Origin: Tridacna crocea
Lineage: Eukaryota; Mollusca; Bivalvia; Cardiida; Cardiidae
NCBI GenBank assembly: GCA_943736015.1
Contig: OX031063.1
Span: forward strand, 21,311,501 to 21,375,500
DNA length: 64,000 bases
Direction: 5' to 3'
The notes under the pieces were generated by a model, which was not told the origin of the DNA, did no database searches, and saw only the letters and a program-made list of their open reading frames with translations. Within the stretch, counting starts at the first letter, position 1; every line of letters starts with the position of its first letter. Positions 1 through 64,000 of the stretch are shown in pieces. The translations under genes were made by a program, and so were the position numbers.

Positions 1-13
1 GTGTTATATGTTT

Positions 14-640
14 TACCACAACATCCTGAGTTTAATGACCCTCCAAGGAGAAAAAAAAATTCCATGAATACAATATGGTAAAAGGAGCAAATGCTGGTAA
101 CCAGCATTTTCACCCTTTTCCAGATTGTTTAAAGGGGGTATGATTATACATGTACATTTATTTTGTTTTATGTAACACAAATATTATTTATTCAACCCTC
201 TACCATACGACAAAATTTTAGACCTACCTGAATTGAAAGCATTTGCAAACAATAATTCCAAGGTGGCTCACATGATGCAAATTTTGTTTAACCCTTTCCC
301 ACACTATCCTGACTTTGAACACCTCTGCGAAAGAAGCCTTTTGAAAACATCGTAGGAAAAAAGGAAAATGCTGGTAACCAGCATTTTCTCCTTTTCCCAC
401 AATGTTTTTTTTTCCTTCCTAGAACAATTGTCAATTCTTTAGTCACATTTATTTTGTCATCTGCAAATGCTTTCAGTTTGGACCAATCTAAAATTTCATC
501 GTTTGGTAAACAGTTAATAGGGTAGAAAACATTGTGGGAAAAGGAAAAAATGCTGATTATCAGCATTTTCTCCTTTTCCCACAATGTTTTCAAAAGGCTT
601 CTTTTTCAGGGTCGTAAATGTCATTATTGTTTGTTAAAGG
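14..640 (+). mobile_element. Family A cluster: four adjacent copies, one complete (288-517)
   Basis: A degenerate forward copy (about 14-137), a reversed fragment (197-291), a complete forward copy with TTAA at both ends (288-517, palindrome about 345-410) and a partial reversed copy (514-640). Family A here means: one end begins ACCACACAATCCCTACTTT and runs to GAAGCCTTTTG; then the central palindrome; then a longer end closing with TCTAAAATTTTGTCGTTTGG and TAAAGGGTTAA. Confidence 0.85.
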
Positions 641-1498
641 TGGGAATTTTCACACACCACCAAATTAAAAAATATATAATCAAAGAAATTTATATGAAAA
701 AAACAATACAAATCATCAATAATTAAGAATCATAAAATTGACAAAAAAAATTTTTTTTTGATGGTTTTCCCTTAAAAGGCTACATAGTCTGTTAAGCTAA
801 TTTTAGATTTCCCACCAAAATAAAAAGGATTTGTGAAATGTTAAGTAACTGGCATGTGACTAATGACGCTGAAATTCCATAACATAACAAACACATAGTT
901 ATTTTCCATAATGTCTTCTTCGGACGCTATGTTTAAAGTTTCGTATGATATTTCCGGTGTGTTGATGAGCGAGATGCTCATGTAAAAATAGACCATGTTT
1001 CTCGGCGGTGTCGACCTGGGCTGTAGTAAATCTCAAATTTCTCTTTTTGTTGGATAGTTTTCGACTACTGGGGTTTTATGAATGAAAATTATAAGGCTTT
1101 TGGAGTAAAAGGAATTTTCTGTATTCTTGTAAAATTTTCGACCCAAAATCTGAAGGGCTACCTTTAAAGGGTTAAGGCTGTATCAATTTTTTGAGGTTTC
1201 TTGGGTTTTAGGGTTTAGCAATGTGTTTATTTTGCTAAAGGACACTTCAACACCACTGCTGCCTCATGTAGGATGTTGTCCAGAATCCTTTTACTGCACT
1301 GAGCCGCTGCAAACCAGTATGTCACTGTCATGGTAATTTTATTGCCATTTTTACCATGACTGACAGACAGGAAAGGATAAAAAAAAAATCTATGTTTATC
1401 GTACTCAATGGAATGTTTTGACTTCATCATGATGGATGGTCATGAAATATACATTTGATGAATAGATGTATGTAACTGCTATACTTAATTGACAATAA
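641..1498. other. Intron without recognisable features
   Basis: AT-rich unique-looking sequence. No supported exon or named repeat was seen. Confidence 0.5.
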
Positions 1499-1726
1499 TT
1501 AACCCATTACCACACAATCCCTACTTTTGACGCCCCTGTGAAAGACACCTTTTGAAAACACTGTGGGAAAAGGAGAAAATGCTGGTAACCAGCATTTTCT
1601 CCTTTTCCCACAGTGTTTTCTACCTTCCCAGAACAAATTTCTATTTTTCAGTCACCTTTATTTTGTCGTCTGCAAATGCTTTCAATTTGGACCAGTCCAA
1701 AATTTTCTCGTGTGGTAATGAGTTAA
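1499..1726 (+). mobile_element. Family A, complete, perfect 32-bp palindrome arms
   Basis: TTAA at both ends. The palindrome at 1555-1619 has 32-base arms that match without error around one central base. It carries the CACTGTGGG / CCCACAGTG arm variant. Confidence 0.9.
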
Positions 1727-1815
1727 GAACATTAACAATTTCATGTAGAAGGTCTTGACATCCAAAGTGTGTAGCAGCCCCATTCTGACAGGAAGTGGCA
1801 CACCTGGCCTTTTCT

Positions 1816-2215
1816 TTAACTCTTTACCAAACGACAAAGTTTTAGACTTGTCCAAATTGAAAGCATTGGCAGACAACAAAATTAGTGACGTCACTCAAAA
1901 ATTGAAGTTTGTTTTGGGAAGGATAGGTAACATTGTGGGACGATGTGATAGGAAAAGAAGAAAATTCTGGTTACCAACAGTTTTTCCATTTTCCACAATG
2001 TTTTTGAAAGGCTTCTTTCTCAGGGGTGTGAAAACCAGGGATTGTTTGGTAAAGGGTTAACTCTTTACAAAAAGACAGAATTTTTGACAGGTCAAAACAA
2101 AAAGCATTGACAATGGTGATTTGAAAACTGAACTTTACTCTTCTTAGGGCAGAAAACATGATGGGTAAAGGTGAAAATGCTAGTTCCCATTATTTTCTTC
2201 TTTCATGGGTTTCCA
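1816..2215 (-). mobile_element. Family A tandem pair (complete 1816-2060, partial 2057-2215)
   Basis: Both copies are reversed and share one TTAA at 2057-2060. The first is full length but its palindrome has decayed, with an extra block in one arm. Confidence 0.8.
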
Positions 2216-2369
2216 TAATTATAATCATAGTCCCTTCAGTTTTAACATTAATCAAGGGAAGTAATTGTAAAGTTTGTTACTATTTACCTCCCTTGATTAT
2301 CAAGCTGCAGTGATACATGATTGGTGCCTGATAAATTTTAAGATTTTTGATAGAAAATATTCTGTTTTT

Positions 2370-3514: not shown

Positions 3515-3629
3515 AGGGAGAGTGATTTATTTTGATGCTAATTGTTATTCTCACATGAGTGGAATATTATGATTCAACTTTAATTTTCATGCCAATGAAT
3601 AAACCTGCTCATATTGCCTGACAATAATT

Positions 3630-3975: not shown

Positions 3976-4098
3976 AAGCCAGTTAAGCCATACAGGATGG
4001 CCCTCTTGTTCTAGTATTTGTTGTGCCCTTGAATAGGCAAAATGCCATCATTTTACCTACATTTGATCTGAAAATTCTTTAAATTCATTCAAGTCTAA

Positions 4099-4838: not shown

Positions 4839-4839
4839 A

Positions 4840-4880
<41 letters not shown>

Positions 4881-7595: not shown

Positions 7596-7843
7596 TGGGG
7601 TGCAACACGCCAAAAGGGGCATTCAGACATTTGCGTAAAGTGTTGTCTCGGATCAGCCTGCGCAGTCCGCGCAGGCTAATCCGAGACGGCACTTTATGAC
7701 TACATTAGACTTTTTTCCTACAGTAGACTTGCACATAACAGAAAATTATATAAAAAAGGAAAGTTTGGTTTCGGATCAGCCTGTGGAAAGTGCTCACGCT
7801 GATTTGAGACGACACTTTTTGCGTGTTTGCAGGCCATATAGTG
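7596..7843. mobile_element. GC-hairpin repeat (palindromic MITE-like), copy 1
   Basis: Contains GTTGTCTCGGATCAGCC, a GC-rich stem (CTGCGCAGTCCGCGCAG) and a reversed counterpart ending TTTGCGTGTTTGCAGG. I associate this repeat with bivalve genomes. A second, shorter copy is at about 56115-56260. Confidence 0.6.
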
Positions 7844-11288: not shown

Positions 11289-11860
11289 TTAACCCATTTA
11301 TACCACACAATCCCTACTTTCGATGCCCCTGAGAAAGAAGCCTTTAGAAAACATTGTGGGAAAAGGAGAAAATGCTGGTTACCAGCATTTTCTCCTTTTC
11401 CCACAATGTTTTCTACCCTTCACTAAACAAATTTCAAATTTTCAGTCACTTTTATGTTGTCGTCTGCAAATGTTTTCAATTCGGACAAGTATAAAAATAC
11501 TGTCGTCTGGTAATGAGTTAAGCCCTTGACAAAATGAAAATTGTCTCACTTTTACAAACTGAGAGCATCTCTACAGAACAGATTTTTAAAAAGGTACAAA
11601 TTGAACAAAATTGTCTTATATGGCAGAAAACTTTTTAATAAAGGAGAAAATGTATAATAATAATTTAGCATTTTCTCCTTTTCCAACAATGTTTGGAAAG
11701 CAGCTTTTCTCAGAGTTGTTTTAACACAGGATTGTTTTGTTTTAATGACCCATCAAAAGAAGCCTATTAAAAATTGTCTGAGAAAAGATGAAATGTTGCT
11801 AACCAGTGTGTTCTTCTTTTTTCCACCTTATTTTGTACCTATTCAAAGGCAAATAAGATA
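11289..11860. mobile_element. Family A trio (11289-11521 complete; 11518-11744; 11741-11860)
   Basis: The first copy has perfect arms of about 34 bases and TTAA at both ends. The second is reversed and degenerate and shares TTAA 11518-11521. The third is a fragment. Confidence 0.82.
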
Positions 11861-11939
11861 ATTGGAAAAAAAAATTTAATACTCAACTGTAAAACCCCTC
11901 AAGATGGATGGGGCTATAACTTAGGTGTGGTTATGGGCT

Positions 11940-12025
11940 TTAACCCTTTACCACACAATGACGACTTTTGACGACCCTGAGATAGAAGCCTTTTGAAAAC
12001 AGCCTTTTGTGTGGTAATGGGTTAA
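11940..12025 (+). mobile_element. Family A, 86-bp internally deleted derivative
   Basis: TTAA ends intact (11940-11943, 12022-12025), but the palindrome and nearly the whole long end are deleted: GAAAACAGCC joins directly to TTTTGTGTGGTAATGG. Confidence 0.85.
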
Positions 12026-12158
12026 TTGTGAGTCTAGATACAGTGTTGATGGTCTGAATAAGATAGGTGTAAAGGGAGAAAACCAGCCCTTGAATAAAAG
12101 AATAGAAATGATATTGGTTATGTCCCCTAATAAAGTTGGTTTTTGTATCTCTTTTCAG

Positions 12159-12884: not shown

Positions 12885-15800
12885 GTAAGTATAATATTGT
12901 ATTTGTTTACCAAATAACAAAAATTCCATAGATAATCATTTTGAAGTACCAACAACAGACAGCTTTTGAAAACATTGCGGGAAAAGGAGAAATTGCTCGT
13001 AACGAGCAATTTCTCCTTTTCCCACAATGTTTTCCACTCAATCAGATATTTGTTTCCTCATTTGTCCATATTTTTGACATCATATCTTTATTTGCTGCTG
13101 AAATGCAAGGGGGCCAAATTGGCATATCTGGTAAAAGGTTATGTAGATCTATTTTACAGTCATTAAACTCGGTATGGCATTAAAAGCATTTGCAGATGGG
13201 GAATTAAATGTGGTTCAATTAATTGGAGTTGTTCATGAAGGTTAAAGAACATTGTGGGAAAATGCCATTTTCAAAATTACTTCAGTTACGTCATGGTGGC
13301 CAGTGCACCTATCCATGCTTTCATGGAGTTTCCTTTTACTAGCACTTTATGCACAATATTTTTTTCCATGCCATTGGCGGCTCTGCCACATAACCATCAT
13401 CAAAACAATATTAAGGGGTGAGAGACAAATAAATCCTTTCAGCATCAATCCTTAGAAAGAGGGCTGAGTCAGGAATCCAACCTGTTACTTGTTCTCAAGT
13501 CTGGTATGCTACTGACTGAGCTACCAGCCTCAGTGTAACTCAGGAAATACATAATTATGTTACTGTTAGGTATACTGTCACTGTAATATACTGTTAGAGC
13601 GGCATAGAAAACTTAATAACAGTCAAGTAAACTAGTTGGCATTTTAACTGGCTCATTATTTGGCAGATTCAGTTATACTTTATACATTTTTGTTCTCAGT
13701 CCTTTTGAAAATCTATTTAACCTTTTACCAAGCAATCCCTGGTTTTTACAACGCTGAGATAGAAACCTTTTGAAAACATTGTGGGAAAAGTAGAAAAAAC
13801 TGGTAACTGGCATTTTCTCTTTTTTCCCACAATATTTTCTACACTGCTGGAAACAAATTTCAATTTTTGAGTTATTCTATCACCTGCAAATGCTTTCAAT
13901 TTGAACAAGTCTAGTATTTTGTCATTTGGTAACCAGCATTGTCTCCTTTACCCACAATGTTTTTTGCCCAGCTGGAAACAAATTCTAATTTTTAGTTTCC
14001 ATTTATTTTTTCATCTGCAAGTGCTTTCAATTTGGACCAGTCTAAATTTTTGTCGTTTGGGAAAGGGTTAAATTACCACAATAAGTAGCGACAGCAACTT
14101 GGAACATTGTGTTTTAAACTCCTCATTTTTCAACTGTATTGTTATGTCAAGATGAATAGACGGATTAAACCCCTAACTGTACAAACAAAACTTTGATCAA
14201 CTAAACGCTGATAGATGTTATGATAAATGGTACAAGGGCAAAATATTTCATGTAAAGAAAAATTTCTGTATTCAATGATGGACCAACACATAAACTAATG
14301 GGAATGGGAGATATCACTATTTAAGGGCAATTACTACTTTTTCCTTCGGTATTCTTAAAAGCTGTTCATTGTGGGGTCGCAGAAGCTGTGCACATAGAGT
14401 TTTGGGTCAATCCTTTTCTATGTCACAAACATATTTTACACTCCTGAAGAAAACTTGACTTGTTACATATACAAATAAAAAAAAGAAACTAAAAACAAAA
14501 ATCAATGCTGAAAAGACAATGGTTCCTTTTAATGTTGATATTCAAGTGTTGCAGTTCTTATTATTCAAGGATTTTATTCTCAGTTTATTGTTACCTATAT
14601 GAAAAGACAAAATGTTTACAACCATGCATAACTTGGGTGTAAATGTTATAGGAAAAAAAGGTCATTATGACAGCTTTGTATACTTGTAAATTTACTGCCT
14701 TATTTTTTTTGGATTGTCCGTCCAGCTGCTCATTTGTTTGAGATATATTCACAGTATATTGCATTTGGAACTTGTTTGTGCCTCCGAAAGATTTTGAGGG
14801 TTTAGAAATTCAATTATGGATGTGATTTTGTGCCTATTCAGATGTATTAGAACTTTGCATTTTGAGATTTGTTAACATCTTTTGTATTGCTATATGGGAC
14901 AAGAATACTTTGGTATTTTCTCATGTATTTGAACCTCATAACCAGTTATTATAAGTAAAAAGAGAACTTATGCAAGAAAAGGCAAATGTCTATTTTGAAG
15001 ATATGACCAGGATTATGGAAAAAGGAACAACTACTATTTCATGAAACAGTAATAATAATCCTCATCAGAGAATGTTCCTAAAAGCTATGAACTGTAAAGT
15101 TATATTAACGGTAGTATGATGGCCATGCTAATTATCACCTGGCCAGAGTTCTAGCATTCAGAGTTTGAACAGCTAATATTCAAGAAGGTACATAATGGTT
15201 AAACTGAAATTTATATTATTCACGGTTTTTTTTTTCTGTGTTTTACTGGTATGTCCCAGACAAGTGACACACTATTGCCATTTGAAGTTTGGAATTACTA
15301 TACTTTAATGTTGATATCATCATTTGCGCATGTACAAAAACATCTACAACAGAAAGAAACACTGTACAGATACTATGAATTTGAGAACTCTTTTAAATGT
15401 TCATAGAGGAACATAGTTTATCATTCTTAAGATTCATCTGTTTTTAATATCTTTTTGCCTAAAAACCGATTTGGTTAAGCTTGGCACCAGGGTAGCTCGG
15501 TGCTTAGTGTATCAGGCTCGTTACCTTATGGTTGCAATTTTAATACCCAGTTGAGGCAAAAGTTTCTTTGCAGCAACCTTTCATTTTGCACCTCTGATGC
15601 TTGTGAAAAAGAAAGTTGTGTTGGTACTAGTGTTTGAGAAAGCCAGAAAACATGTGCACAGGAGCAATGACTTCCATGATTTGACATGAGCTATTAAATC
15701 AGCGCTTAACCCATTACCAAAGGACAATATTTTAGACTGGCCCAAATTGAAAGCATTTGCAGACGACAAAATAAAAGTGACTGAAAATTTGAAATTTGTT

Positions 15801-18800
15801 TTGTGAAGGGTAGAAAACGTTGTGGGAAAAGGAGAAAATGCTGGTTACCAGCATTTTCTCCTTTTCCCACAATGTTTTCTAAAGGCTTCTTTCTCAGGGG
15901 CGTCAAAAGTAGGGATTTTGTGGTAATGGGTTAACTCCAATTCTATCAATCATTTGGTTTAGCCCTTATTAGTGACAGACAATTACTGTAATACTGCATT
16001 GATATAATCTGTAGGTCATGCATAAAGTATTTTACAGAAACCATCAGCTAGTCTTCTGACAACAATTCCTTTTCATTCGTTCCTCATTTGTACAAGATAT
16101 GTTGAAATGTGATCAAAATTTTCATCAGATATTTTCTACTTGCCTGATTTCTCTTGTGTAAAGCCCACTCTATCAGTCCTCTAGAAGCCAGAAGCTTGAC
16201 ATGTGACATTAATTCTTATTTATCCCTGTACCTTACAATCCTGAGTTTTAAAAACCCTAAGTAAGACAGCTTTCAGAAAAATTATGGGAAAAGGAGACAT
16301 TGCTGGTATGAGCTTTTATTTCTTTTCCCATAATCCATTCTGCCATTCCAGGGACAAATTCTGTCATTAAGCCACATTTATTTTGTAGTCTGCAAATGCT
16401 TTCAGTTCAGCCAAGTCCAAGATTTTATTTTGTGGTAAAGAGTTAAATTCCATACTTCATGAAGGAAAACCCTTGTAGCAGGCAACTTTTAGCAATATAT
16501 ATTTGATGCACAAGTAAGTCTAAAAACATTGTTCCAAAGGAAGGAATTAAACAAACTGAACTTTATTATTACAATCATGGTTGAAACTTCCTAAATATAA
16601 TTTACCAACAGAAATTTAGAAAAGATCAGAATCAGTCAGCAGTTACCGTTATCATTCACTCAATTGTAAATTCTTTTGTAGCTCACCTGAGCACTCATTG
16701 CTGAAGGTGAGTCTATGAGATTGTGCTAGATCTGTTGGCTGTCATGTGTCATGTGATTGTCAACAGTATATTATAAACTTGTGCACTGTGAAGACTACCT
16801 CTTCAGTCTGATTGTCATGAAAGCATCATGTCCAATACTCTTGAAAGTTACATATTTGACAAAAGTGAAAATAAGTCTCACAGAGTCAAAAAGAAGATTA
16901 CTGGAACAAATCCTATGAATAAAAGCTTTGTGTGTATTCCAGAGGCTACATTTTAGGCCAGATTCTTATGAAATTTGGTCCAATGTTTGTCTGGATGACA
17001 TCATCATCAAGTTTGATATTGGATCAAGATAGGTGAAATATTAGGTCACTAGGACAAATCCTAGAAAAAATGTACAAGTGTCTTCTACAGTCAGCATTTA
17101 ATTTAGTCATAATAATTGGTCAAACATTCATTAATTTTGTTTTGTGTCATCACAACCTGAAGCTCTTCACTATGACTTTACTCAGATGAGCACTTTAGGG
17201 CCAACTGCTCTCTTGTTTACTCTTAACCCTTTTCCTGCTAAATAAATGAAATGAAACTTTCAAGCTGATAGTAAAAACCCCAGTTTTGCTATTTCAAAGG
17301 TATTTTGCAGAGAAAGATATTCCTTATTGGACAGTGTAGATTTAAGTTCAGACTGCATACTCTGTGCAAAAGGTCATTTAGGATTCTGTGATCTTGTGTC
17401 AGGGTTTCTTGGACATGTACCTTTCGCTCCAACTTTCCTAAAAAAAAGTGATCTGGAATTTGAAAAAAAAAAAAACAGGAATTGTGCCATTTTATTTAGA
17501 ACATGAACATTATTAAGATCCAAGACAAGATTGTACATAAGGCATATTTTTGATCAACGCCTTTGTTTCCTTTAGTATTTCAAGGATTTTATCTGAAATT
17601 AACCATTTACCAAACAATCCTGTGTTATGACCCTGACAGAGAAGGCTTTTGAAAATCTATTTTGGAAAAAGAGAAAATGCTAGTAACCAGCATTTTCTCC
17701 TTTTGCCAAGTTATTTTCTGCTCTTTCATGAACAAGTCCCTATAGCCTCTTTTGTCACCTACATTTTTTATGCTTTAGACTTTGGAAAGTCCAAAATTTT
17801 TTTGGTGTTAAAGAGTGAAAAGGAAATGGGTATCTTGCGAGTTACTTAGGCTAAGGACCTGATAGAAATTATTGATACCTGTTCAGTGATGAACTGACTT
17901 TTGTTGCAGACTGCTTGTCCTTTGTGAATGTTCTTGTCTATCAGTTTATTAGATAGAGGATTGAGGATGGGCTAGTGACTGATCAAGCTTTTTAAGGAAG
18001 TTTTCTGAATTGTTGTAAGGCATGTTAAAGGCTTAAATTTTAACAATGCAGGAGCTATAGTGCATTTAAATCATACCATTTGAAAGTATTGAAATTATTG
18101 TGAAGATGACAATTTTTTATTGTGCAGTTGGTCCAAGTGTTAGTCCCTGGCAGAAAATGAAGTAAAAAAAACAGGTAATACTAAACAAAAGACAGAACAA
18201 CTGAGTTGTTTTTTACCTAGTTTTGAAATTCATTTTTCTGTCAGCATCTAATACTTGGACCTAGCGCACAATAACAGATTGACATTTTCAAAATATTATT
18301 CACAGGTTTACAAGCTATGATTGAAATTTGATTGCATTAGCATTGTTTACTTTTGGCTTCTATTTGGCATTTAAGATAATAAATATAGTTCTTCTAGATA
18401 TCATGATATAGAAATGTTAAACTCGTGTTGAAGCATGATTGTTTTTTATAGTGATTTGTTTCACTTAATGAACCATAAAGCAGTATTTTCATTTGGCATA
18501 ACAGAAGGAATTTGCCAATGAGGAGTTCCAAGAAACAGTATTTGGATTTAACAAACCCAGTTTTTTGTCCTTTCAGAATTTCGACAGTTGGAAAAGCAAG
18601 CGTCGCAAGTCAACTCCATCATATCATAAAATTGGCGAGGCTGAAGGACTTTTCAAGGAGGAAGAAGAGCCTCAAGAAAGGAAAACAAAAACATTTAGTC
18701 AAATAATGGCAGATAAGTAAGAGCAGTCTTAGTCATATTTTTTTAGCTCACCTGAGCACAACGTGCTCAGGGGGAGCTATTGTGACCGGTCATCGTCCGG

Positions 18801-36800: not shown

Positions 36801-39800
36801 GAAATCAATATCACTCCCTCCATCTGGAGCTCTGAACCCTATTTTCTCTACTTTCTACCCATTTGCCTCATTATACACCCCACAAACTTTGCTCCGTGGT
36901 AAAGAGATAAAGAGATTGTTTGCTCAGTAGAGGTGGTCACTAAGCCAGGTTTTACTGTTTATTAAATAGGTAGCGCTGCTGATGTATGTGAAGTGGAAGC
37001 CAATGATGAGCTTTTATCCATTAACGGCCGGGATGTGTCCTCTTTAACCTTGGCCCAAGTGCAGGGGATAGTCGACCACAGTGTGAAGAGAGGACAGATT
37101 GAACTCAAAATTAAAAGATATATGGAAGAAGGTAGATAATTACTTTCCGTAACTCTTTACTCCATAGATTCTCATTTCTACACACTGCTTGTTGGAGCCT
37201 TTGGAAAACGTTGTGGCAAAAGGTGAAATTGCTCGTCACGAGCAATTTCGCCTTTTGCCATAATGTTTTCTATGCTATCAAAAGGTGTCATATACACATA
37301 AGGAACTGCTTCATCCTTGCTGTTATTTAGGGTCAATTAGAGATACCATAGAAATGCCTTATGGAGTAAAGGGTTAACTCTTTACGAAACTCCAAAATTT
37401 AAGCTTTGTCGAAATTCAAAGCATTTGCAGATGATAAATTAGATACAATGTATAGTGGGATTTGACTGTAAAGGATAGAAAACAAAAGTTAGAAATGCCA
37501 AAAATGCTGGTTACTTTCCCCACTTTGTTTTCCAAGTTTTATCTCGGGATTTTTTGGGGTGAAGGGTTAAGTCATTACCATTTATTATGCGTGGTTTTAG
37601 GGGTTGGGTTTAGAAAATAACATGGAAAGAAGAGTAGCTCTTTGTTAAAAGTCATTGCTTCTTTTCTCACATTGTTTTACAAACTGTTCTTCCACTAGTA
37701 GAATAAGGGGTCCGATATGGTTTAGGTGTATGATTTCAATTTAGAAAGGTGTATTAAAATTTGTTTGGTATAGGGTTAAAATTTGGCTTTCTGGGTTGAA
37801 ACAATAATTCGGATTATTTGGGATCTCTATTCCACGGAAGCCACTTAACATATTTCATCTTTGCAGCACTGTAAGGGTTATTAATTACCTTAACCCATTA
37901 CCACACAATCCAAGTTTTAATGACCCCTATGGGGAGAGCTTTTGAAAACATTGTGGGAAAAGGACAAAAATTCTGGTAGCCATTTTATCCTTTTCCCACA
38001 ATGTTTTCTACCCATCCTGTAACAAATTTCAATATTTGAGTCACATTTGTTTTTCTGTATGCAAATTCATTCAATTTGAGCAAGGCTGTAGTGTTCTCAG
38101 CTGGTTAACCCTTTACCACACAATAACAACTTTTAACGACCCTGATGAAGAAGCCTTTTGAAAACATTTTGGAAAAAGGAGAAAATGCTGGTAATCAATG
38201 TTTTCTTCCCAATTAAAGGAAAATTGTCATCTGAAAATTGTTTCAGTTTGGATAGGTCCAAAATTTTGGCATGTGGTAAGGGGTTTAGAGTTAACAATCT
38301 ATCTAAGAACATCTTTTGTCATAACTATCTGTGACTGATAAGCAAAGTGGCTGATATCATAGACACAAGTGCTTTCTTCTCATTTCTTAGATGATAACAA
38401 AGTTTTTTTGCTTTCTTTTTTGTTCTTTTAATAAGAAATTAATGAAGGTGGTGCCTGTCATGATTCTGACCTTCATGAATCCTTTAACCCTTTACCAGAC
38501 AAAAACAATTTAACCTTGTCTAAATTGAAAGCATTAATTTTGTAGACAACAATTTCAAGGTGGCTCATATGGTGTAATTTTCCTTTATAGGGTCAAAAAC
38601 ATTGTGGAAAAAGGAGAAAATGCTGGTTACCAGCATTTTCTCCTTTTCCCACAAGATTTTTCAAAGGATTCCCTCTTCTAGGGGCGTTAAAAGTCATCAT
38701 TGTGCAGTAAGGTGTTAAACCATATACTTCACAATCTGGAGTTTTAACAACCCTGAACAAATTTTTTGAAGACATCGTGGGAAAAGTGGATAATGTTGGT
38801 AACCAGCATTTTCTCCTTTTCCCTCAATATTTTCTAAACTTCTTTTCTTCTGTGGGTTTGATAAAATACTGGTAAACACTGTGGCAAAGGGGTAACAATT
38901 ACTGCCTGCAGATGATTGTTTTAATCTTGCATAGGGCATTTTAACCCATTACCACACAATCCCTACTTTTGACGCCCCTGAGAAAGAAGCCTTTAGAAAA
39001 CATTGTGGGAAAAAAAGAAAATGCTGGTATCCAGCATTTTCTCCTTTTCCCACAAAGTTTTCTACTCTGCTGGAAACAAATTTCAATTTTTGAGTTACAT
39101 TTATTTTGTCGTCTGCAAGTGCTTTCAATTTGGACCAGTCTAAAATTTTATTGTTTGGTAAAGGGTTAACAAAATATTGTGGTCAAAGGAGATACTGCTC
39201 ATATGAATTCCCTCCCACCACTGACTATTATTTCAAAGATGGTTATGTGGGAAAGCAGCCGTGGCTTGGAAAGAATATTGTGAGGAGTGCTGGTAAAAGA
39301 GACTCCAGGAAAGCATAGATAGGTGCACTGGCCTACATGGTATAATTGAAACAAATTTGAAAATGGTATTTATTTAAATGACAATATTTTAGGCTTGTCC
39401 AAATTGGGAGCATTTGCAGACAACAAAATAAAAGTGACTTAACATTTGAAATTTGTGTTGTGAAGAGTATAAAACATTGTGAGAGAAGGAGAAAATGCTG
39501 GTTGCCAGCATTTTCTCCTTTTCCCACAATGTTTTCTAAAGGCTTCTTTCTCAGGTTTGTCAAAAGTAGGGATTGTGTGGTAAAGAGTTAAATACAATAC
39601 AATCAATCAGCAGTTTGTAAGGTTTTTGTTCTTGACATTGACCCCCATGATCCCCACCCTTGGTGTAAAGCTAACCAACTGAGCTACTGGGCTCAGCTGT
39701 CAGGTTAATTCTAGTGTTTAACCCATTACCACACAATCCCTACCTTTGACGCCCCTGAGAAAGAAGCCTTTTGAAAACACTGTGGGAAAAGGAGAAAATG

Positions 39801-42800
39801 CTGGTAACCAGCATTTTCTCCTTTTCCCACAGTGTTTTCTACCCTTCCCAGAACAAATTTCAAATTTTCAGTCACCTTTATTTTCTCGTCTGCATATGCT
39901 TTCAATTTGGACCAGTTTAAAATTTTCTCGTGTGGTAAAGAGTTAACTCATTATCACACAATCCGGACTTTTAACGACCCTGAGATAGAAGCCTTTTGAA
40001 AACATTGTGGGAAAGAAGAAAATGCTGGTAACCAGCATTTTTTTCCTTTTCCCACTATGTTTACTACCCTGCTGGAAAAAGTGTCAGTTTTTGAATTACA
40101 TATAATTTGTCATCTGAAAGTGCTTTCAATTTGGACCAGTTTACAATGTTGTTGTTTGGTAAAGAGTTAACTAAGTTTGCAAAACTTAAACATTCTGTCA
40201 TAACTGAGGATGTATTTATACTTCAAACTCAGTCATGTTATTAACTGTCAACAGGAAAACCCATACAACAATGACAGGTAACCGTTAAAACTGTTGACAC
40301 AGTTATGTCCCTGTATTGGCCCAAAATTTTCACTGAAAATCAATCTGCTCTTTATAACCACTGCTGCTGAGCGTTGGATCCCAAATGGGACGCTGTGGTT
40401 GTGGCAGAATTTTTTTCAACAAATATTATAGGACTTGTTTACAATGAGAATCATGGTTGTATACATTAATCTTTTCACTCAATACAAACATGATCAGAGA
40501 TAAATTCCATGCTTTCACCGTTGCTTGACTGATGTCTTACAAACCCATGAATAGTAACCTAGTGTTAGGTGATAGTGTATGGGTATAGATAGCTCTTTGC
40601 AGGGGTATTTTTTAGGCCTAATCCTGAACCATGCAATCCTAACTGTTAAAGGCCTTATAATAAAAACTTTTGAAAACATTGTGGGAAAAGAAGAAAAGGA
40701 TGGTAACCAGCATTTTCTCCTTTTTCCACAATGTTTTCTACTCTTTCAAAGATTAATTCTGTCATGGGTAGCTTTGGGGTTAGCCCTTTACAGACTTTAA
40801 ACAACCAAATAATTTGGTTTAAATTTAACACTGGAAAAATGTATTTCAAGCATTATGCCAGTCTAAGGTTCTGGCATTTCCCCTTCCAAGAACAGAGTCT
40901 CAGAATAACAGTAAAGCAGTAAGGATTGTCCAGTACAAAAAATCCTGTTTTTTACTAGCCTGGTTATAATTTTACTGACAGTTGGGTATGAACCAGAAAA
41001 AAGGGCGTGGGATGTAGATAGTGGGTGAAAGGTGTACATAGGAATAATTGTTAAGTCCAGGTGGATCATGTTGAATACAGGATTAATGTGAGGAAGTGCT
41101 TGATTGATTCTGGCTAAGCTGCTAAGGTATTTGGAATTTTGTTCCGTCTTGTTTGACATGACAGTTAAAGATCTAAATGGTTTCAATATATTAATTTTAA
41201 ACGTCAGTGTGATTTTAATAATGTTTATCTTTTGATTTGAAAAAGTAATAAAATGGGGTGAAACTTTGGTGTAAAAATGTATGGTTAAATTTTTGTAACA
41301 TATATTTCACCAGTGTTTTGCATTAATTCTATAATTACCAGTTCTAAATTAAAGAATTTCAGAAGTTCCTAGCATTTTCAGACAAAAAATTAGTTGTTTC
41401 TGAGATAGTTATATATTTCTTTTAAAGGGTAGAAAACATTACCATGTAAAAAGATAAAAAGCTGGTAACCAACATTTTTCCCTGATTTCTCAACTGTGCT
41501 GGTGACAAGCATTTTGTCCATTTTTTCGAAGTTTCCACATCAGGGTTGTAAAAACAATGAATCCTATGGAATATGTATAAAACATTCTCAGACACTATTT
41601 CACAGATTAGACCTGAAAACATCCACCTAACCAAAAGAATGCTTTTATGAACAAAATAATATAATTGGTAGGTTAGATGAATGCATGTGGGATGGGGAGA
41701 AATTGGGCAAAATCAATTCCTAATAAACCAAGCATTAGTTTTTCCATGTATTTTCCTTTCTTTTAGGCCATGGTCATTCAGTCGCTATTAAAGAGACTTT
41801 ATTAGTTGAGAATTATGTATTTGATGTAGGTCCAAGATCATTCAGCACCTTCTGGACAATCTGATCTTGATCTATGCTGTACACAACAGCTATTAAATGT
41901 GATCCATAAAAAGTTAAAAATAGTGGATGTATGTCACATAGACATTGCAATCCTCCTTCAAGCCAATGTAATGACTCTTTGGTTCATTGATTTTATAATC
42001 CCACATTCCAAAGAATGATAATGATTGATAGAGTGGGTATTAGAACTGACCTTTTGATGGGAGAGAGACTTGGCCATGTATTCCCTCCCCCCCCATTTCT
42101 TTACAAAGGTGTGACTGATATCTAGATTCAGTGTGGTAATAAAACAGATTCCTGAGCTGCTGATACAACTTTGTTCATGAAAAACATTATTTACAGACTG
42201 TCTTGATGCCAGGATCATGTGGCTTTCAGAATGTCAAAATTTCTTTGCAGTCTGATCTTGTAATTTGCCCTGTATCATATATTTCAAGTGACTATGACAA
42301 AAACAGCCCCATCATGAAGTATGGGTATTTGAGTCTGTTATACTGATTTTTAGCTTGGCTGTTTTCTTAGAAGGCATCAATTAAGGTATTGCAGTAGCCC
42401 TGGTATTATTGTCTTCTGCATAGTTGTCTGTGTTATTTGTGTTGCGCAAAAACTTTGACATCTTATAATGTCTTGATGATAACTGAAAACAATTACTTCA
42501 AATTTGGACTGGGAAACTCATACAACAAGGGCAAGTAACCATCAAAACACTTTTGACAGTTATGCCCCTGTTTTGACCTAAAATTTTCACTGAAAATCAA
42601 TCTATTACTAAAAGAAACTGGAGCCAAGCACTGGCACCTTTGTCCTGTGATGCTCCTTTCTCCTTTCATCTCCATACAAAGTATTATCTGAAAGGTTGAG
42701 AGAAGGTAATAAAAAGAAACTTGATTGGTAAAAGTGAAAGGTGTGAATGCATATTAGATTACATTCTTGAAGATTTTAGTATCTATGTAAATCAAAACAG

Positions 42801-45800
42801 GGCAGTTTAATCCTATTGATTTATTTTATAACATCCTGATTCATGTATAGATCTGTTAAAAAACCAGGGTATGTAAACTCATTTCAAAGCTTATCTGAAA
42901 ATAAGAAATCACTGAGAAAAAGACTTAACTCTTTACCAAACGACAACACTTTAGGTTGGTCCACATTGAAAGCATTTGCAGACGACAAAATAGATGTGAC
43001 TAAAGAATCTAAATTTGCTTTAGGAAGGGAAAAAAACATTTTGGGGAAAAGGAGAAAATGCTGGTTACCAGCATTTTCTCTGTTTCTCACAATGTTTTCA
43101 AAAGGCTTCTTTCTCAGGGGCGTCAAAAGTAGGGATTTATGTAGTAGAGTAATGGGTTAAATCTTTACCAAACAACAACACTTTAGGTTGGTGCAAATTG
43201 AAAGCATTAATTTGCAGACGGACGACAAAATAAATGTGACTAAAGAATTAAGTATTGGTTACAAGCATTTTCTCCTTTTTCCACAATGTTTTTAAAATGC
43301 TTCTTTCACACAGTTGTTAATAGTTGGGATTGTGTGGTAAAGGATTAACCCTTTAGCACACAGTCTGGACATTAAATGACACTGAGAAAGAAAGCTTTGT
43401 AAACATTGTTGGAAAAGGAGAAAATGCTGGCAACCAGCCTTATCTCCTTTTTCCATGTTTGGTAGAGTGTTTTCGAAGGGGAAATATCATTATGCTGGAA
43501 TATTTCAAAAGGTTAAAGATCCTATAGCCTCCAAAATTAAATAATTGTGATTTCTCATTGGCCCACATTTGTGGCGCGAGTAGTGGGGTAGCTCCCAGGA
43601 AGCTGTATCTAGAGATTAGTGTAAGCTGTGAGAATTTTTGTCCCAATCGATGAAAAATGAATGTGTTTACACTATAATTACTAATAGTCTTTCGGATGAG
43701 ACATTGAACCAAGGTCCAGGACGACGTTGCGATGCACCAAGCATGTTAACTCTTTACCAAGCGATGAAATTTCTGGCTGATCCAAATAGAAAGCACTTGC
43801 AGACGACAAAATAAATGTACCTCAAAAACTGAAATTTGTTTAAAACAGGGTAGAAAGCATATTGGGAAAAGGAGAAATTGCTGGTTTTCTCCTTTTCCCA
43901 CAATGTTTTCAAAAGGCTTCTATCTCGGGGTTGTAAAAACCAGGGATTGTTGGGGAAAGGGTTAAAGAACCAGGCAGAACTTAGAATGTGTTTTGGCCTG
44001 TATGTCACACTAGTATCCATAACAAAAATAAGATTTCAGATGGTGTTCCCCTGTAATGGGCAACTGGTGGCGACAATTAATAAACACAAATTTAGTCAGT
44101 CAGTCAAACCAACTTTTGCCAGAGCTTGGCTCATATATTTTTCAATATTTCAGGATCCTATGATTCTGTTGAAGAAGAAGAGACAGCCAATCAAAACAAG
44201 ATGGACACCCAATCTTCTGATGCCAGCAGTTTGTCCACTGATTTTACCTCAGAGGAAACCTACAAACCACCCCCAAGGGTATAAACTCTTTTTGTAACCT
44301 AGTAAATAATCCCTAGTTTTAGCTGCCTGAAAAAGAAAGCTTGTGAAAACATTGTGGGAAAAGAAGAAAAATGCTGATAACCAGCATTTTCTTCTTTTTG
44401 CGCAATGTATCCTACCCTGTCACAGGCAAATTTCATGATTTTACCCTCACCTCTGCTTTCTCTTTTCAAGGATTAATGATTTTTTTTCTAAGAGTGAATT
44501 CCTCTCTCATTTTCGAACATTGGTTTTTCGTGGTATTTGTGGAAAATGTGACTAGAATTGTCAAATTTATGTTTTAAAGAATAGAAAACAGTAAGGGGAA
44601 AGGAGAAAATGCTGGCTACCAGCACTTCTTTTCCATAGTGTTTTCACAACCCTTCTTGCTCAGTGTGTTGTAACTCTTTCTCAACAAAATTTTAGGCATG
44701 TCCAACTTGAAAGCAGTAGCAGACCACAATTCAGATGTGATCCAAATGATTGTACATGTATTTCTTATTGAAAGGCCAGAAATCATTGTGTTAACCCTTT
44801 ACTCCATACTCATTTCTACGCATTGCTTGTAGGAGCCTTTGGAAAACATTGTGGGAAAAGGTGAAATTGCTCGTGACGAGCAATTTCACCTTTCGCCACA
44901 ATGTTTTCTATGCTATCAAAAGGTGTCGTATTCACATAAGAAATGGTTTCATCCTTGCTGTTATTAAGGGTCAATTAGAGATACCATAAAAATGCCTTAT
45001 GGGGTAAAGAGGTATAATGAGAAAATTCTGGTTAAAAGTATTTCCTAGTTTTCCCAAAATACTTTCCAAAGCACTCTTCAGGATCTTTAAAACCTGGGAA
45101 TGTATAGTAAAGGGTAAAACTTTGAACTGTTTGGTAAAGGGTTTACTTACTCACTTTCAAAATAATTATGTGTATGATTAATATCAGTTAATAAGATATT
45201 ACATGAATAAATATCTGAAGGTAAAAGAAACCATTGTCAGGGATCAAGATGTATGCTTGACCTGAAAAAAATCTAAGGTTCTGGCATTCCCATAAAAAGG
45301 GAAATTGCTATAATGATTCAAACTAAAGTACCATTACTTACGATTGTTCTGGGTCCATATTCACCAAACATTCTTAATTAAGAACATTCTTATATAAGTC
45401 TTATTATTCAGAATTTTTTCAGCATGAAAGTAACAGAGCTTCTGATTGGCTAAACCATTTTGTTTAGCCAATGAGAAGTTCTGTTACTTTCACAGTCAGG
45501 AAATCTTGAAGAATAAGACCAAGGACGTTCTTAAGAACGGTTAGGGAATACAGACCCTGTACTCAGTATTGTTTTAACAAATTTTAATGCACAAAGAGCA
45601 GAATGATATGGAAAATAATAGGTACCATGGAAAAATGGCTTGTTGTTGGTATAAATGTAATTCAGTTGGTGTCGAGTCAAAAAACTATTCCCTGTTTTGA
45701 ATTTTTATTTTGAGTGAAATTAAATTTTTGGATGAAAAAAGTTCATAAAAAGTTTGACAATTTAACTGTCATGAATCATAGAGACAGTGTGTCATTGTGT

Positions 45801-48800: not shown

Positions 48801-51800
48801 TTTCTTTGTTTTAGCTTAATGAAGATAAACCACCTAGTCCAGTTATAGTTGAACAAATCAGTCCAGAAGTCAGTTTCAGCAGTCAGAGTGTGCCACAAAC
48901 AGAAGTCCATATAGATGTAATGAAGGATGAAACGGATGGTTCGCGTCCTGAACTTCGTAGAGACATGAGTTATCCTGCTGAAGAGATGATCATTGAAGAG
49001 AGAAAAACTATCTCTTTCCCCAGTAAAACTCCTGAAAAAGGTATAGTAATTTTTTTTTTGACAAACTAGTTGAGTACTACAAATTTGAAATAACAGTGTT
49101 GTGTGCTTGAGTTTTTTTTTCATGTATAAAATTGTCCTCAAAGGAAACTCACTAAATAAAGATACATGGATTCTTTATATAATAGGTTTGTTCCCTTTGG
49201 TTTATAAGGTCAATTCACTACTGTATTTTGTTGAACAATCTTTCATGAATTTATATATGAAACATTTCACACTAGAATGCAATCTTTATAGAATTAGTAC
49301 ACCACTCAGATTAGTGTATCTGATCGTAAACTTCTTATGATTATCAAAATGTGTGAAATTGTAGATGATTAGCATTAACTACTGGTTTGAAGAGACTTCA
49401 TCAAATTACATTTTTAGACTTATTAATTCATTACCATTTATTGAATGAACTGATAACTTGCTATAATGTTGTCCAGAGTGTCAAACAAAAGTCTATGCAT
49501 GAATAGGAGTAATTGCTTAATACAGGCAAAGCTGTCTCCCACAAAATGGTTTCTGAACACTAAAGCCTACTAAAATATGAATACCATTTGAGATGGTTTG
49601 TAGTGAAGATGGTAGAGAGATAATAGGGAGTTTTTTGTGTTTTATAGATCATTCACCGAATGTAATCAGAAGAACCATGACCCCATCTAAACAGTTTGCT
49701 GAGATAAAGAATGTCGAATCACCTGTTCCACCCACTCCACCAAAAGTGGAACCTCCACCACTTGTAAGGTCCTCAGAGAACCTGAACACCAGTACTACCA
49801 GTGATGACAGTAGCAGTAGTAGCGTAGGACCCCCTGCTGCACTGTTACGCTGGCAGAGACCCAAAAGTAATTCAGGGTATAAAAATCCATTCCAAAAATC
49901 AGAAGAGCAAATACAAGCTGCTAAAAGACTGAGTTCTACATTGCCATGGCGACCAGACAACATATTATCATTGGATGACTATAGTAAAGATGACAGCATG
50001 ATAGACAAGGTAACAAAGTCCTTTGAAGAGACTGTATCCGTCAGTAAACCAGTAGAAAGTAAATTTGAGTCATACAAATTTGATGATGAAGGGCGCCAGC
50101 AAGCTTGGAACCAAAAACAAGAACAACAACGAAAGGTGAGTGCAGTACATTGTATAGGAAAGGCTTTTGGCTTTTTTCAAAAAAATTTGCATATGTACTT
50201 GTGCAAAGTGACTTGAGTTACTTCTTGTTTTTCAACTCTTTACCAAACACTGAAAAATACAGACTGGACCAAATTGAAAGCATCTGTCTTTTAAACCCCA
50301 TTTGACTTGTCATCTACAGATGCCTTCAGTTTGGACATGTCTTAGGAAAAAGCATTTTTAAATTGCTGGTGATATGGTGAAATAATGGCCATTGAAGGTT
50401 AGTTGGATGAATTTGGGAAAAGTACTTCGTAGCTCGGACTTAGTACAACTTAAGTTCAAGAGAATCATGAATAATGAGGAGCTTTATTGATATGACTGAA
50501 ATAGAAGATCTTACATGAGTCTTTGTATAGTTCCATTTTTAACAAATGAGTTAACTAAAATTGTATAACGCAAGCCTTGGCAAGTGTCAAATACATTTTA
50601 GTGAATGAGTTTGACAAAAAGGATAAAACATAAACATGAATGTGAGATTCTATTTATCACATAAGACAAATGACAGACAGAAAATATCCTGCATCATCAC
50701 TTTTAGCCTCTGTAACGTTCACAAGTACATACACAACTAGATGGTTCTGTTACATTTACACTGAAAGAACGGTGAAATACTTTATACAGTGGTTAAGTCC
50801 ACCCATTTCCACAACAGTATTGATTTTAAGAGACTTTCGCAGCATTTCTTGGTTTTTATTAAACTTGAAAATCAAAAGCTTTCCACACTTATACATCATA
50901 GCAACAGTGACATCATTTTTCACTGAAATGGTATAACAGCACAAATTACCACACAAACTGTGGTTGGTTTCTCTTGCATCACATACTCGTGACTGAAAAC
51001 TGAGAAGAACCGGGACACAAAAAACGGTGATACACTAGTGTATTATCAAAAATAAGTCATGGGTTTAATACACTGCCGGGTGAGGTTTTATGTGATAAAT
51101 AATGTTCAACTAGACATCATAGATTTTTCATAGATGCAGCCATGTTGTACTATGTTACTGTAACATAATATCTGGTGCAAAATTTTTTCCTTCTTGCAAC
51201 AGACCTTTTTCAAAAATACTATGTCAACAAGACAAATTGTTTACAACAGGACAAAAAAATGAATTCACCTTTTACCAAAATATTTTTATTTATATTCATG
51301 TAACTGTTAAACCTCATTTTATGTAGATAAAGCATTGACAGACAACAAATTGATGTGGCTTGAAGGAAGATTTTTGTCTATTAGAAGCTATAAAACTTTG
51401 TTGACAACAGAAAAAAAATTATGGTTACCAGCATTTTTAGCTCAGCTGTTTTCAGAGAAAAAAACATGAAGGTGTTTTCCTCACCCAGGCTTAAAATATC
51501 ATACGCTGAAAACCAGGATTTTCTTCTTTCCCAACCACATTTTTCTAGCCTATTATAGAGAAAAACCATTATATGATACATATTCAATGTAATTATTATG
51601 CAAATGCTTACAGTTTGGAGAAGTCTAAAATTCTGTCATGTCCTAATGTGTTAATTCATTACCGAACAACAAAATTTTAGGCTTGTCCAAATTGAAAACA
51701 CTTGCAGATGACATACTAAAAGTGACAGAAAGTTTGAAAATTGTTTTGTGAAGGGTAGAAAACATTGCGGTAAAAGAAAATGCTGGTTACCAGCATTTTC

Positions 51801-54800
51801 TTTTCACTCAATGTTTTCTACAGGCTTCTTTCTCGTCAAAAGTTTTGGTCGTCAAAAGTAGGGTTTGTGTAGTAATGGGTTAACTCTTTACCAAACAACA
51901 AAGTTTTAAATTGAAATCAGTTGCAGATGATAAAGATAGCTCAAATGGCAGAATTTGTCTTTAATAGAGTAGAAAACCTTGTCGAAAAAGGAGAAAATGC
52001 TGGTGTTTCTCCTTTTCCCACACTGTTTTCAAAAGGCATGTCTCTAAGGGTAGTGAAAGCCAAGGATTGTATGGTATAGAGTGAAGGATACAAAATACTT
52101 GAACAGGAATAAGATTTTTTTTCATGCATTGTGGAATAATATCTACTGCATATTACTTTTTTTTTTTCATTATTTTTCTGAAATGCTGTGTGCATTATGA
52201 TGCATGTTTTAACACAAGTAACTGGTAATTTGAAGCATGGATTTGCATTAGTTTTGTTCAAACTTACAGCAGTTATGCAAAGGGCCTTTTCTTGACGGTA
52301 CCTTTAGAACATGAAAAACAATTGTACCAGCATTTTCTGTCTTAAAAAGGCTTCTTAAAAGTGGTTAAAATATCAGAAATACAGCTATAAAGAGGCAGGC
52401 TGTTTAAAACATTGTGAGAAAAGGAGAAAATGCTGGTAACCATCATTTTCTCCTAATCTTTTCTATTCAATCAAGGACCTAATTTTCTCTTTGAGTCGCC
52501 TAATGTGTTGTCTTCAGATGCTTTCAATTTAGACCAGGCTAAAATTTTGTCGCTTGTAAAAGAGTTAAAGACCTATCCTGTCACATGGCATTTGATTTGT
52601 GATCTGACACTTTTTTTTAAAATGGACAAGTCTAAAATAAGAGTTAACCCTGTACCAAATGAAAACATTTTAGACTTCTCCAAATTGAAAGCACTTGCAG
52701 ACTACAAAATAAATGTGGCTCAAAAATTGAATTTTGTTTTTCAGAAGGGTAGAAAACATTGTGGGAAAAGAAGAAAATGCTGGTTAGCAGCATTTTCTCT
52801 TTTTCCCATGATGTTTTCAAAAGGCTTCTATCTCAGGGTCATAAAATCCAGGGACTGTTTGGTAAAGGGTTAAAGACCTATCCTACCATATGACATTTGA
52901 TTTCTGATCTGACACTGCTTTTAACCCTTTAATCCATAGATACTCATTTCTAAGCATTGCTTGTAGGAGCCTTTGGAAAACATTGTGCCAAAAGGTGAAA
53001 TTGCTCGTGACGAGCAATTTCACCTTTCGTCACAATCTTTTCTATGCTATCAAAAGATGTCATATACATATAAGAAACTGCTTCATCCTTGCTGTTATTT
53101 AGGGTCAATCAGAGATACCACAGAAATGCCTTATGGGGTAAAGGGTTAAAAAGGACAAGTCTAAAATACTCATGAGGTAAAGAGTTAAGGGATTGTTGAT
53201 TGCTTATTTTGCATGTAGCCTGATGAAACGCCTAACAGTACCATACATGTCAACTTTACAAGGGAGGAAACTTTAACTGCACAGGTAAGCATGTACATTA
53301 GTTTGGTTTGGCTTTGTGTGCATTTTGCTTGCATTGTGTGATTGCCATTTCTAGCATGTTCTTCTTCTAAACATGTGCCTTATTTCTGTTACTGTTTATA
53401 TTGGTCTATATGAACTGTCAGTCCAAAAACATTTTTAAGAAGGAACACACAGAATGATCAGTCAGAATTATTAGTATTAGTCAGTTCTTGTTGTAACAAT
53501 ATTTGGTATGACTGAATGCAACGTGTTATATCACAACATCATTTCCATGGCTTGAGATACCTAAACTTTTCACATATACCCAAATCACTATTTCTTAAAA
53601 CTTTTTTATCTGTGGTTAACCCAAGTAAAACAAAGGGACATTTGCATTGGAGGAAAAAAAACCTAAACAAGTGCAATTCAATGTGCTTTTTGTCAGTAAT
53701 ATCCCTCCACAGTGAGCAGTATAGATCCAAGAAGAGCCTTCCTGTTTTATGCAGTCTGATCTTCATCTCCACTGGCCGCAAAGACATTATTTTGTAAATG
53801 GTACTGTACATAAAATGTAGGAAATTTTGTGTGTGAATGGCAGAGTACATTGTATCCTTATTGATCAAAATAATTTTGAATGATAAAAGCAAGTGGTTGA
53901 CATGTTCATATATTCTTGTATGCGTAGCAGGATGGTGTGGTGCCTTGATCCATCAGTCATTGGAATTTCCTTTTATCAATACTTCTATCAATGAATATAT
54001 ATTTTTTCAATCTATTGGAAAAGAAAATAAATGTGCTGATAAATTACAATAAAATCCTGATATGAAGTTTCCTGTATTTACTATTCATTTTTAAAATGTG
54101 CTTCTGAATTAGATTCTTTGGTCTTACAAAAATAAATTGCTTAGTTTTGTATCCATAAATTTAAAATGATTTGAAATAGAAACACAGTTAAAAGAATTTG
54201 AAGTAGAAGCATAGATACATCAGGTACTTTTTATGTTGTTTGAATGTCCTTGTTCATAAAACAAAGCAAACTGAAAGTGACTTCAAAAGTCATATTCAAA
54301 TGAAGATGAGTATGATAATTCAAAACTTCAGACTTTAAAATATTTATGTGGATTGATTTGAAGTTTTATGTGAATCAATGATTTGTTTACAATTATTTGG
54401 AATTGAAATCATTAATAATTATTTGGAATTACTTTTTTTCAATCTTAACAGTCAAGTTTAAGATCAGTCATTTAATTTTCTGAAACATGAATTTAATTCT
54501 TTGATGCTTTCTATGATTGTTTCTATGGTTGTTTGATTGGAACTAGAATGGTGGTGAATATGGGTATTACTGTAGCAAAAGATTTCTCAGGGTGTTCTAG
54601 GAAGATTTTGTGTGGTTTGACCATAGAATATAATTGCATTACTGTAGTCAGTATGGTATGTTATCTCTTTACCAAACAACAAAAGTTTAGACTGGTTCCA
54701 ATTGAAAGCATTTGCAGATGACAAATTGAATGTAGTTGAAATGATAATTTCTTCCTTTGATAAGGTAGAAAACACGTGGGAAAAGGAGAAAATGCTGGTT

Positions 54801-63604: not shown

Positions 63605-63915
63605 GTAAGTTTTTGGCAGTGCTGTTTTATTAACTCTTTTGGAAAAGCTTTGATAAATATAGATTTGATTGGTAAACATAATCACATGCACATAGTAATA
63701 ATATTACCTAGGAAGGAAGATATTTTTTTTAGCAATTTTTTTATTTTGATTTGTCTATTTTGATCAAGAAAGTTCGCTACTTGCATAGAGGTCTGAACTT
63801 TGTTTCTCATGTGACAAATAAATTTAGGATCCATTTGCAAGTAGCAACAACTACTTGACAAAAAAGAAAACCACAGTGGAAGATTTGCTCAAAATGATTT
63901 GTTTTTCATGTTAAA

Positions 63916-64000
63916 TATGGTTCCTGTGTGGCTCAGTGGTAAGTTGTGAAACTCATAACTTGGAGGTCCCAGATTAGAGCCACACTGTTTTTTTTTTTTT
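63916..64000 (+). mobile_element. SINE family 2, cut by window end
   Basis: TGTGTGGCTCAGTGGTAAG head and B-box-like AGATTAGAGCC. Confidence 0.7.

Follow-up and report, generated by a model that had tools for sequence, protein, structure and literature searches.

A short TTAA-ended MITE with a long central palindrome fills more than a quarter of the 64,000-nucleotide stretch of Tridacna crocea DNA analysed here (the window, C8:21311501-21375500), and the same family amounts to about a million copies, or between about a sixth and a fifth of the genome, by extrapolation from samples. We think it probable, and hold this with some confidence, that the family is a non-autonomous piggyBac-type MITE at about that copy number, in which the ends and the palindrome are two conserved modules. 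The evidence comes from a census of copies in the window and in 20 genome samples, from empty insertion sites, from the divergence of the different parts of the element within and between families, and from a comparison with the piggyBac transposase loci of the same genome.

Anatomy of the element and census in the window

An HMM seeded with a single copy gave 178 matches in the window with the palindrome counted on both strands. After removal of overlaps, iterative nhmmer left 98 non-redundant copies or fragments covering 17,308 bp (27%), and a rebuilt 229-column model again found 98 copies (26.9%). An earlier note on this DNA, made from the sequence alone, had counted about 80 copies; it was right about the kind of element and low in the count. 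No nhmmer matches appear in reversed sequences or in one dinucleotide shuffle of the window and the 20 samples. When the 25-bp core of the palindrome is used instead, 57 palindromic cores are found in the window at up to 5 mismatches.

The alignment of 140 near full-length copies (window and 20 samples) gives a consensus of 229 bp from TTAA to TTAA. At its centre lies a 67-bp palindrome, 33 pairs flanking one base, which bears out the earlier description of a TTAA-ended element with a central palindrome of 60-70 bp. The consensus left end is TTAACCCTTTACCACACAATCC and the right end, read inward, is TTAACTCTTTACCAAACGAC. Outside the TTAA, agreement drops to about 30-40% per column, so the element has sharp boundaries. 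In the window, 40 of the 98 copies span 205 or more of the 229 columns and count as near full length; TTAA stands at either end of 35, and 27 combine the two properties. At least 30 of the 33 palindrome pairs are kept in 20 of the 98. Over all sequence analysed, the palindrome could be measured in 226 copies, of which 89 keep 30 pairs or more and 19 keep all 33. The nhmmer search for full copies may be biased towards those with good arms. Representative copies in the window, some with the core of the family c1 described below, are as follows.

669..870: paralogous empty site with a single TTAA, in another repeat; the L018 counterpart carries the element at 2427-2652
1499..1726, plus strand: full-length copy, 33/33 pairs, TTAA at both ends
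1816..2203, minus strand: two abutting copies, joined at a TTAA (2057)
11290..11521, plus strand: full-length copy, 33/33 pairs; first in a mixed-orientation run of four adjoining copies that extends to 12001
11521..12001, minus, plus and plus strands: three more adjoining copies or fragments
12937..13141, plus strand: copy with the core GAGAAATTGCTCGTAACGAGCAATTTCTC, changed in both arms, 32/33 pairs
15706..15934, minus strand: full-length copy, 32/33 pairs, TTAA at both ends; top score in the window
28487..28703, plus strand: copy, 33/33 pairs, TTAA at both ends
33718..33946, minus strand: full-length copy, 32/33 pairs, TTAA at both ends
37150..37377, plus strand: copy with a family-c1 type core, AATTGCTCG...CGAGCAATT, 30/33 pairs
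38941..39169, plus strand: full-length copy, 29/33 pairs, TTAA at both ends
39718..39946, plus strand: full-length copy, 229/229 columns, 33/33 pairs; adjoins the next copy through a common TTAA
39943..40170, plus strand: second member of this abutting pair, 28/33 pairs
42925..43459, minus, minus and plus strands: three abutting copies
44791..45013, plus strand: copy with a family-c1 type core, 31/33 pairs
51652..52084, minus strand: two abutting copies
52644..52873, minus strand: full-length copy, 28/33 pairs, TTAA at both ends
52921..53149, plus strand: copy with a family-c1 type core, 30/33 pairs, TTAA at both ends

Insertion at TTAA and the origin of clusters

Among the 140 full-length copies, TTAA is found near the left end in 111, near the right end in 104 and at both ends in 85, where chance predicts 8.9% per 14-bp stretch. 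We then looked for empty sites by joining the flanks of 83 copies and seeking uninterrupted paralogs. Spanning matches were returned by 28 of the 83 queries before filtering; after dropping self-overlaps and matches covered by mapped copies, 15 queries with 72 matches were left. For the insertion at L018:2427-2652, all five paralogs of the host repeat (in L013, L014, L015, L020 and at window 669-870) are uninterrupted and have a single TTAA, and L016:1850-2075 adds one further empty-site paralog with a single TTAA. Since these clean empty sites carry one TTAA, the TTAA is a target duplication. Most of the other matches are uninformative: the copy at window 289-515 is nested in a second copy of the same family (194-640), and L014_1733 is poorly aligned at the site. 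Several diverged paralogs have no TTAA at the site, and show TGCA, TCAA, GTAA, TTAC or TCTC there.

Copies frequently adjoin each other. Of 282 consecutive pairs, 46 (16%) are separated by a gap of -8 to 2, in the orientations ++ (12), -- (10), +- (11) and -+ (13). We reject tandem duplication as the main origin of the clusters because the four orientations are about equally frequent. Element ends occupy 276 of 2,166 TTAA sites (12.7%), so that a random choice of TTAA nearly accounts for the 16% of adjoining pairs. Across the genome, there are 8,905 exact end-to-end junctions. The MITE inserts at TTAA and duplicates it, and copies meet at a common TTAA in all orientations, building clusters.

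Copy number in the genome

The assembly has 1,048,827,098 bases in 31 contigs, of which C1-C18 (40-77 Mb each) make up nearly the whole genome. Contig C31, which has a COX1 match at C31:26516-27850, is probably the mitochondrial genome. We took 20 samples of 10 kb at arbitrary round coordinates, picked before looking at the sequence and not as a random draw. They contain 203 copies, which cover 17.4% of the bases on average; single samples range from 0 to 52%, and two contain no copy. The high density, which had been thought peculiar to one gene, is thus a property of a family dispersed over the genome, and the window is above the genome average and inside the genome range.

Scaling the sample density gives 1.06 million copies (bootstrap 0.73-1.42 million), or 11.9-23.4% of the genome, a wide 95% interval. 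The exact 25-bp core GAAAATGCTGGTWACCAGCATTTTC occurs at 231,766 genome sites, the same pattern read backwards at none, and the collection of viral contigs has no match to the exact core. With 34 exact cores in the samples, scaling by the core count gives 1.38 million copies (1.06-2.15 million), or 22.6% of the genome (17-35%), an estimate that presumes that the samples mirror the genome's mix of exact and mutated cores. The core of family c1 occurs at 15,582 sites (7,810 + 7,772). The element thus has the short length, the non-coding sequence and the high copy number of a MITE.

The palindrome and the ends are two slowly changing modules

Identity to the consensus is 0.90 in the arms of the palindrome, 0.86 in the terminal 14 bases and 0.75-0.76 in the spacers. 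In pairwise comparisons at all distances, differences in the arms are about half as frequent as those in held-out spacer columns (ratio 0.49-0.57). Counting private substitutions, those that distinguish a copy from its five nearest neighbours, the arms change at 0.42-0.66 and the termini at 0.49-0.63 of the spacer rate over five classes of distance. The 28 copies of the closest class have 27 private substitutions in 1,715 arm positions, 11 in 686 terminal positions and 80 in 3,117 spacer positions. The palindrome diverges as slowly as the terminal repeats.

We clustered 163 full copies using the non-arm columns only. The main family, c24, has 92 copies, c1 has 14, and c10, c11 and c23 have four each; smaller clusters and singletons were excluded from the comparison of consensus sequences. 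The consensus of each of c24, c1, c10 and c11 pairs at 33 of 33 positions and that of c23 at 32, with a one-sided change at pair 20 (four copies). Between c1 and c24, pairs 3, 8, 13 and 20 differ, each time on both sides, and none differs on one side. The same is found for c10 (four copies), which differs from c24 at pairs 2, 3, 8 and 26. In c11 (four copies) the arms are identical to those of c24 and the spacers are 71-79% identical. Ignoring mutation bias, the chance that eight random changes on 66 arm positions form four complementary pairs is about 9e-8.

For c24 and c1, which have the same total length, the terminal repeats with TTAA agree at 22 of 24 positions (92%) and the arms at 58 of 66 (88%), whereas the left spacer agrees at 20 of 43 (47%) and the right at 37 of 95 (39%). 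A gapped comparison of these spacers shows weak similarity on the left (z 3.4) and no signal on the right (z 0.7). The terminal repeats and the 67-bp palindrome are thus two slowly changing modules of the MITE. From one family to another, substitutions in the palindrome come as compensated changes on both sides, and the spacers are much more divergent.

Compensation in lineages and in single copies

Within individual copies, arm-to-arm correction is weak or absent in both the single-copy and the genome-wide tests. Leaving out six family-diagnostic pairs, 72 of 151 double changes in single copies are complementary, and 70.4 are expected. A test with copy-specific rates, from which family-diagnostic copies were removed, finds a small excess at partner positions, 169 observed against 143 expected (1.18), with a ratio of 0.92 at non-partner positions. 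Genome-wide, where expected doubles were calculated by hand from the singles, the change of pair 6 from G-C to A-T has 8,867 singles, which predict 85 doubles, and 247 are observed (2.9 times). In a non-partner control, pair 6 with pair 3, 165 doubles are predicted and 392 observed (2.4 times); most of the pair-6 excess is mirrored there, so it reflects age differences among copies. For the family-diagnostic change of pair 3 from G-C to C-G, 847 singles predict 0.8 doubles and 23 are observed. Compensation is mainly an event of lineages and not a property of single copies.

These results bear on how the palindrome is kept. A replication hairpin or a template switch could copy one arm onto the other, and new families would then start from re-perfected palindromes without selection. 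Such copying would yield exactly the two-sided changes seen between families, and it would agree with the small excess at partner positions that persists after the family-diagnostic copies are removed and with pair-6 doubles slightly above their control. It leaves unexplained, however, the arm rate of half that of the spacers and the inter-family identity of 88% against 39-47%, and it sits poorly with complementary doubles in single copies that are only as frequent as predicted and with an excess at pair 6 that is mostly common to non-partner positions. Copying would not slow the arms and constraint would, which favours selection on the palindrome in source elements; we regard arm copying as the unlikely explanation. 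The constraint could also act on RNA, if intronic copies are transcribed and their RNA forms 32-bp hairpins, of the size of a pre-microRNA, that enter small-RNA pathways. Folded as RNA, the palindromes from four copies in the window have energies between -45.8 and -55.5 kcal/mol (z between -12 and -15), with none of 200 shuffles as low. On the other hand, no Rfam family reaches the gathering score in the window, and selection would need to work on the source elements of a parasite, so that we find an RNA role improbable.

The palindrome probably serves transposition, perhaps as a transposase-binding dyad. At 229 bp the MITE is too short to encode a transposase, and a piggyBac transposase acting in trans would cut and paste it. 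Source copies that lose the palindrome would transpose less, and the palindrome would be kept in this way. The simplest reading may be that of a dyad for transposase dimers, by analogy with the palindromes that the cysteine-rich domains of piggyBac and piggyBat bind near the ends of those elements. A central dyad that recruits the transposase would explain a constraint equal to that on the termini, and it would fit so small an element, with its two ends close to each other. Alternatively, the palindrome could be used as a single-strand hairpin during replication. Taken further, the palindrome would be a transposition module selected in source elements, under a constraint equal to that on the ends, that enabled a million copies, and the family would represent a two-module class of MITEs to which the coral CMITEs are perhaps distant parallels; this larger proposal we put forward tentatively, at somewhat below an even chance.

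Superfamily and the search for an autonomous partner

The ends of the MITE are CYCWTTACC-type inverted repeats. The consensus sequences of c1, c10 and c11 have CCCTTT at both ends. In the main family c24 the left end is CCC, and the right end is mostly CTC with a minority of CCC; both forms are among the junctions listed. Counted by eye on the consensus sequences, the inverted terminal repeats are 13 bp and perfect in c10 and c11, match at 12 of 13 positions in c1, and are imperfect in the main family, where 10 of the first 13 bases match. Two superfamilies are known to be specific for TTAA, piggyBac, with CCY termini, and Kolobok. With a right terminus that is mostly CTC, the main family deviates from the CCY motif; c24 is placed among the piggyBac-type MITEs because it shares its left end, target site and palindrome with the other families. 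For MITEs of this type, inverted terminal repeats of 12-19 bp are stated in the accessible text of the Acropora study (PMC2872659). The sharp TTAA boundaries, the empty sites with a single TTAA and the CYC termini support the proposal of a MITE that targets TTAA and has piggyBac-like ends.

Membership in Kolobok would share the TTAA duplication, and according to the accessible text of a study of that superfamily KolobokP is especially rich in bivalves (PMC9587614). The same text gives Kolobok termini as 5'-RR...YY-3', whereas the MITE consensus begins with 5'-CC or CT, so that piggyBac fits better and Kolobok seems very improbable. SINE and rolling-circle sequences make up a large part of the repeats published for giant clams (16.01% and 22.48% in T. 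crocea; PMC11700175, Table 2, as accessible), and the MITE may be filed there, which could suggest that it belongs to one of these classes. Terminal inverted repeats and a 4-bp TTAA duplication suit neither, and no tRNA-, 7SL- or 5S-related head was found in the window or its 98 copies (no Rfam matches at gathering score, no genes by ARAGORN with the bacterial code); we give an element of either class hardly any credence.

The genome has 118 listed matches to the piggyBac transposase domain PF13843, and none of them is inside the window, which agrees with the earlier note that no transposase is present there. We examined the flanks of 24 of the 118 matches, 1.1-1.6 kb on each side, for TTAA-flanked inverted ends. 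At nine of the 24 there are TTAA-flanked inverted CCC-type ends of at least 9 bp, in the classes CCCATTTATGCCT, CCCTTTATATAC, CCCTTTCAGYGC, CCCTAGTCATGC and CCCTCTAGA; the CCCTCTAGA-type locus has an additional AT-rich end pair that scores higher. Transposase families of piggyBac with TTAA-CCC ends therefore reside in the same genome as the MITE, sharing with it only the first 4-7 end bases. The earlier note proposed to look for an autonomous piggyBac with matching terminal bases; none of the 24 matches examined has CYCWTTACC ends within the flanks searched. The autonomous partner may be extinct. MITE copies beside piggyBac loci resemble ordinary insertions.

At L061:979-1056, between the coding part and the putative end of the piggyBac at C8:24821097, there is a diverged palindrome that shares the outer GAAAACATTGTG part and has a different inner sequence. 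It could be a palindrome within an autonomous element, or an old MITE. We rejected it as a link to the partner, as a single copy cannot show that it belongs to that piggyBac. Fragments of piggyBac transposases, mostly with stops, are clustered at C13:4.48-4.61 Mb, C8:56.71-56.76 Mb and C8:50.41-50.44 Mb, and these clusters are possibly local duplications or co-opted genes. The piggyBac loci L051/L052 (C15:28.7 Mb) and L057/L058 (C18:17.6 Mb) have apparently matching flanks and the same MITE arrangement, and may be duplications of a larger unit.

Other repeats and open stretches around the copies

Arrays of 165-167-bp tandem units are found at window 2414-3141, 9502-10997 and 18801-20138, the first and third with GTCC/CGTC-repeat leaders. 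Presumably they resemble the Pearl/helentron-type elements of bivalves. A model of the tandem unit accounts for about 6% of the window and for at most 7.6% of the 200-kb sample, which places it second to the MITE among the repeats measured. Palindromes are not confined to the MITE: 41 of 181 in the window and samples are outside it. Unrelated palindromic repeat families are present at window 7615-7710 and 45458, at L027:1844 and at L016:2718. The GCGCAGGCT-type palindromic repeat has 85 matches in the window and samples and makes up 1.3% of the sample; further non-MITE types are CTCGTAACTACAGCTTG and TTGGCTAAACC. Long open stretches on the plus strand, at window 12018-12917, 22109-22786, 26567-27679 and 49581-50216, have no Pfam match above the cut-off. 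They look like exons of one Ser-rich gene, in which case the MITE copies of the window would be largely intronic.

Relation to known elements and significance

Searches of the open-licence literature on MITEs, TTAA, palindromes, bivalves and Tridacna, and for the sequence strings, found no description of this MITE. Within that literature, the suggestion of an undescribed family stands for the TTAA-targeted MITE itself, without the one-gene density that went with it. In piggyBac and piggyBat, dimers of the cysteine-rich C-terminal domain (CRD) bind palindromes (PMC11707139, accessible text). The ends of those elements, like the MITE, combine a TTAA target with a palindrome, but the CRD palindromes are short and subterminal, near the ends, whereas that of the MITE is 67 bp long and central in a 229-bp element.

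Among the closest elements in the literature is CMITE of Acropora (Wang et al. 2010), an element of about 100 bp with about 1,600 copies in A. millepora by the authors' estimate (PMC2872659). As far as the accessible text goes, it has in common with the Tridacna MITE a duplicated TTAA, ends of CCCTTT type, clustering, a suspected piggyBac-like partner and conservation of an internal region among families, which in CMITE is a shared sequence of 75 bases. The terminal inverted repeats of CMITE vary among families and those of the Tridacna MITE are conserved; CMITE arrays are interpreted there as slippage, whereas the Tridacna clusters show all orientations. Neither "palindrome" nor "hairpin" is used in that accessible text, and the comparison is one of text, not of sequence. 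In Daphnia, the MITE groups mPok1 and mPok2 stand beside Pokey, an element of the piggyBac superfamily (PMC4912750, accessible text). T2-MITE/Xmix of Xenopus is TTAA-targeted and long-lived like the MITE described here, and unlike it has AGGRR termini and belongs to Kolobok (PMC6004289, accessible text).

The copy number is far above that of CMITE and of the ATon MITE families, which have some hundreds of copies each. For one cut-and-paste MITE of 229 bp in an animal genome of 1.05 Gb, it is Alu-like. Published repeats of T. crocea comprise 14.19% DNA transposons and 9.87% unclassified sequence besides the SINE and rolling-circle shares given above (PMC11700175, Table 2). The DNA-transposon total is below both of our point estimates for this one MITE, yet inside the interval of the density-based estimate, and some of its copies may therefore be listed under SINE, rolling-circle or unclassified sequence. 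The published repeat classes of T. crocea may need revision, which bears on the dates and causes published for repeat growth in giant clams. Compensated and uncompensated natural palindromes lie side by side in this genome, and they offer a direct way to ask what makes MITEs more numerous than their parent elements, and if an internal palindrome is responsible.
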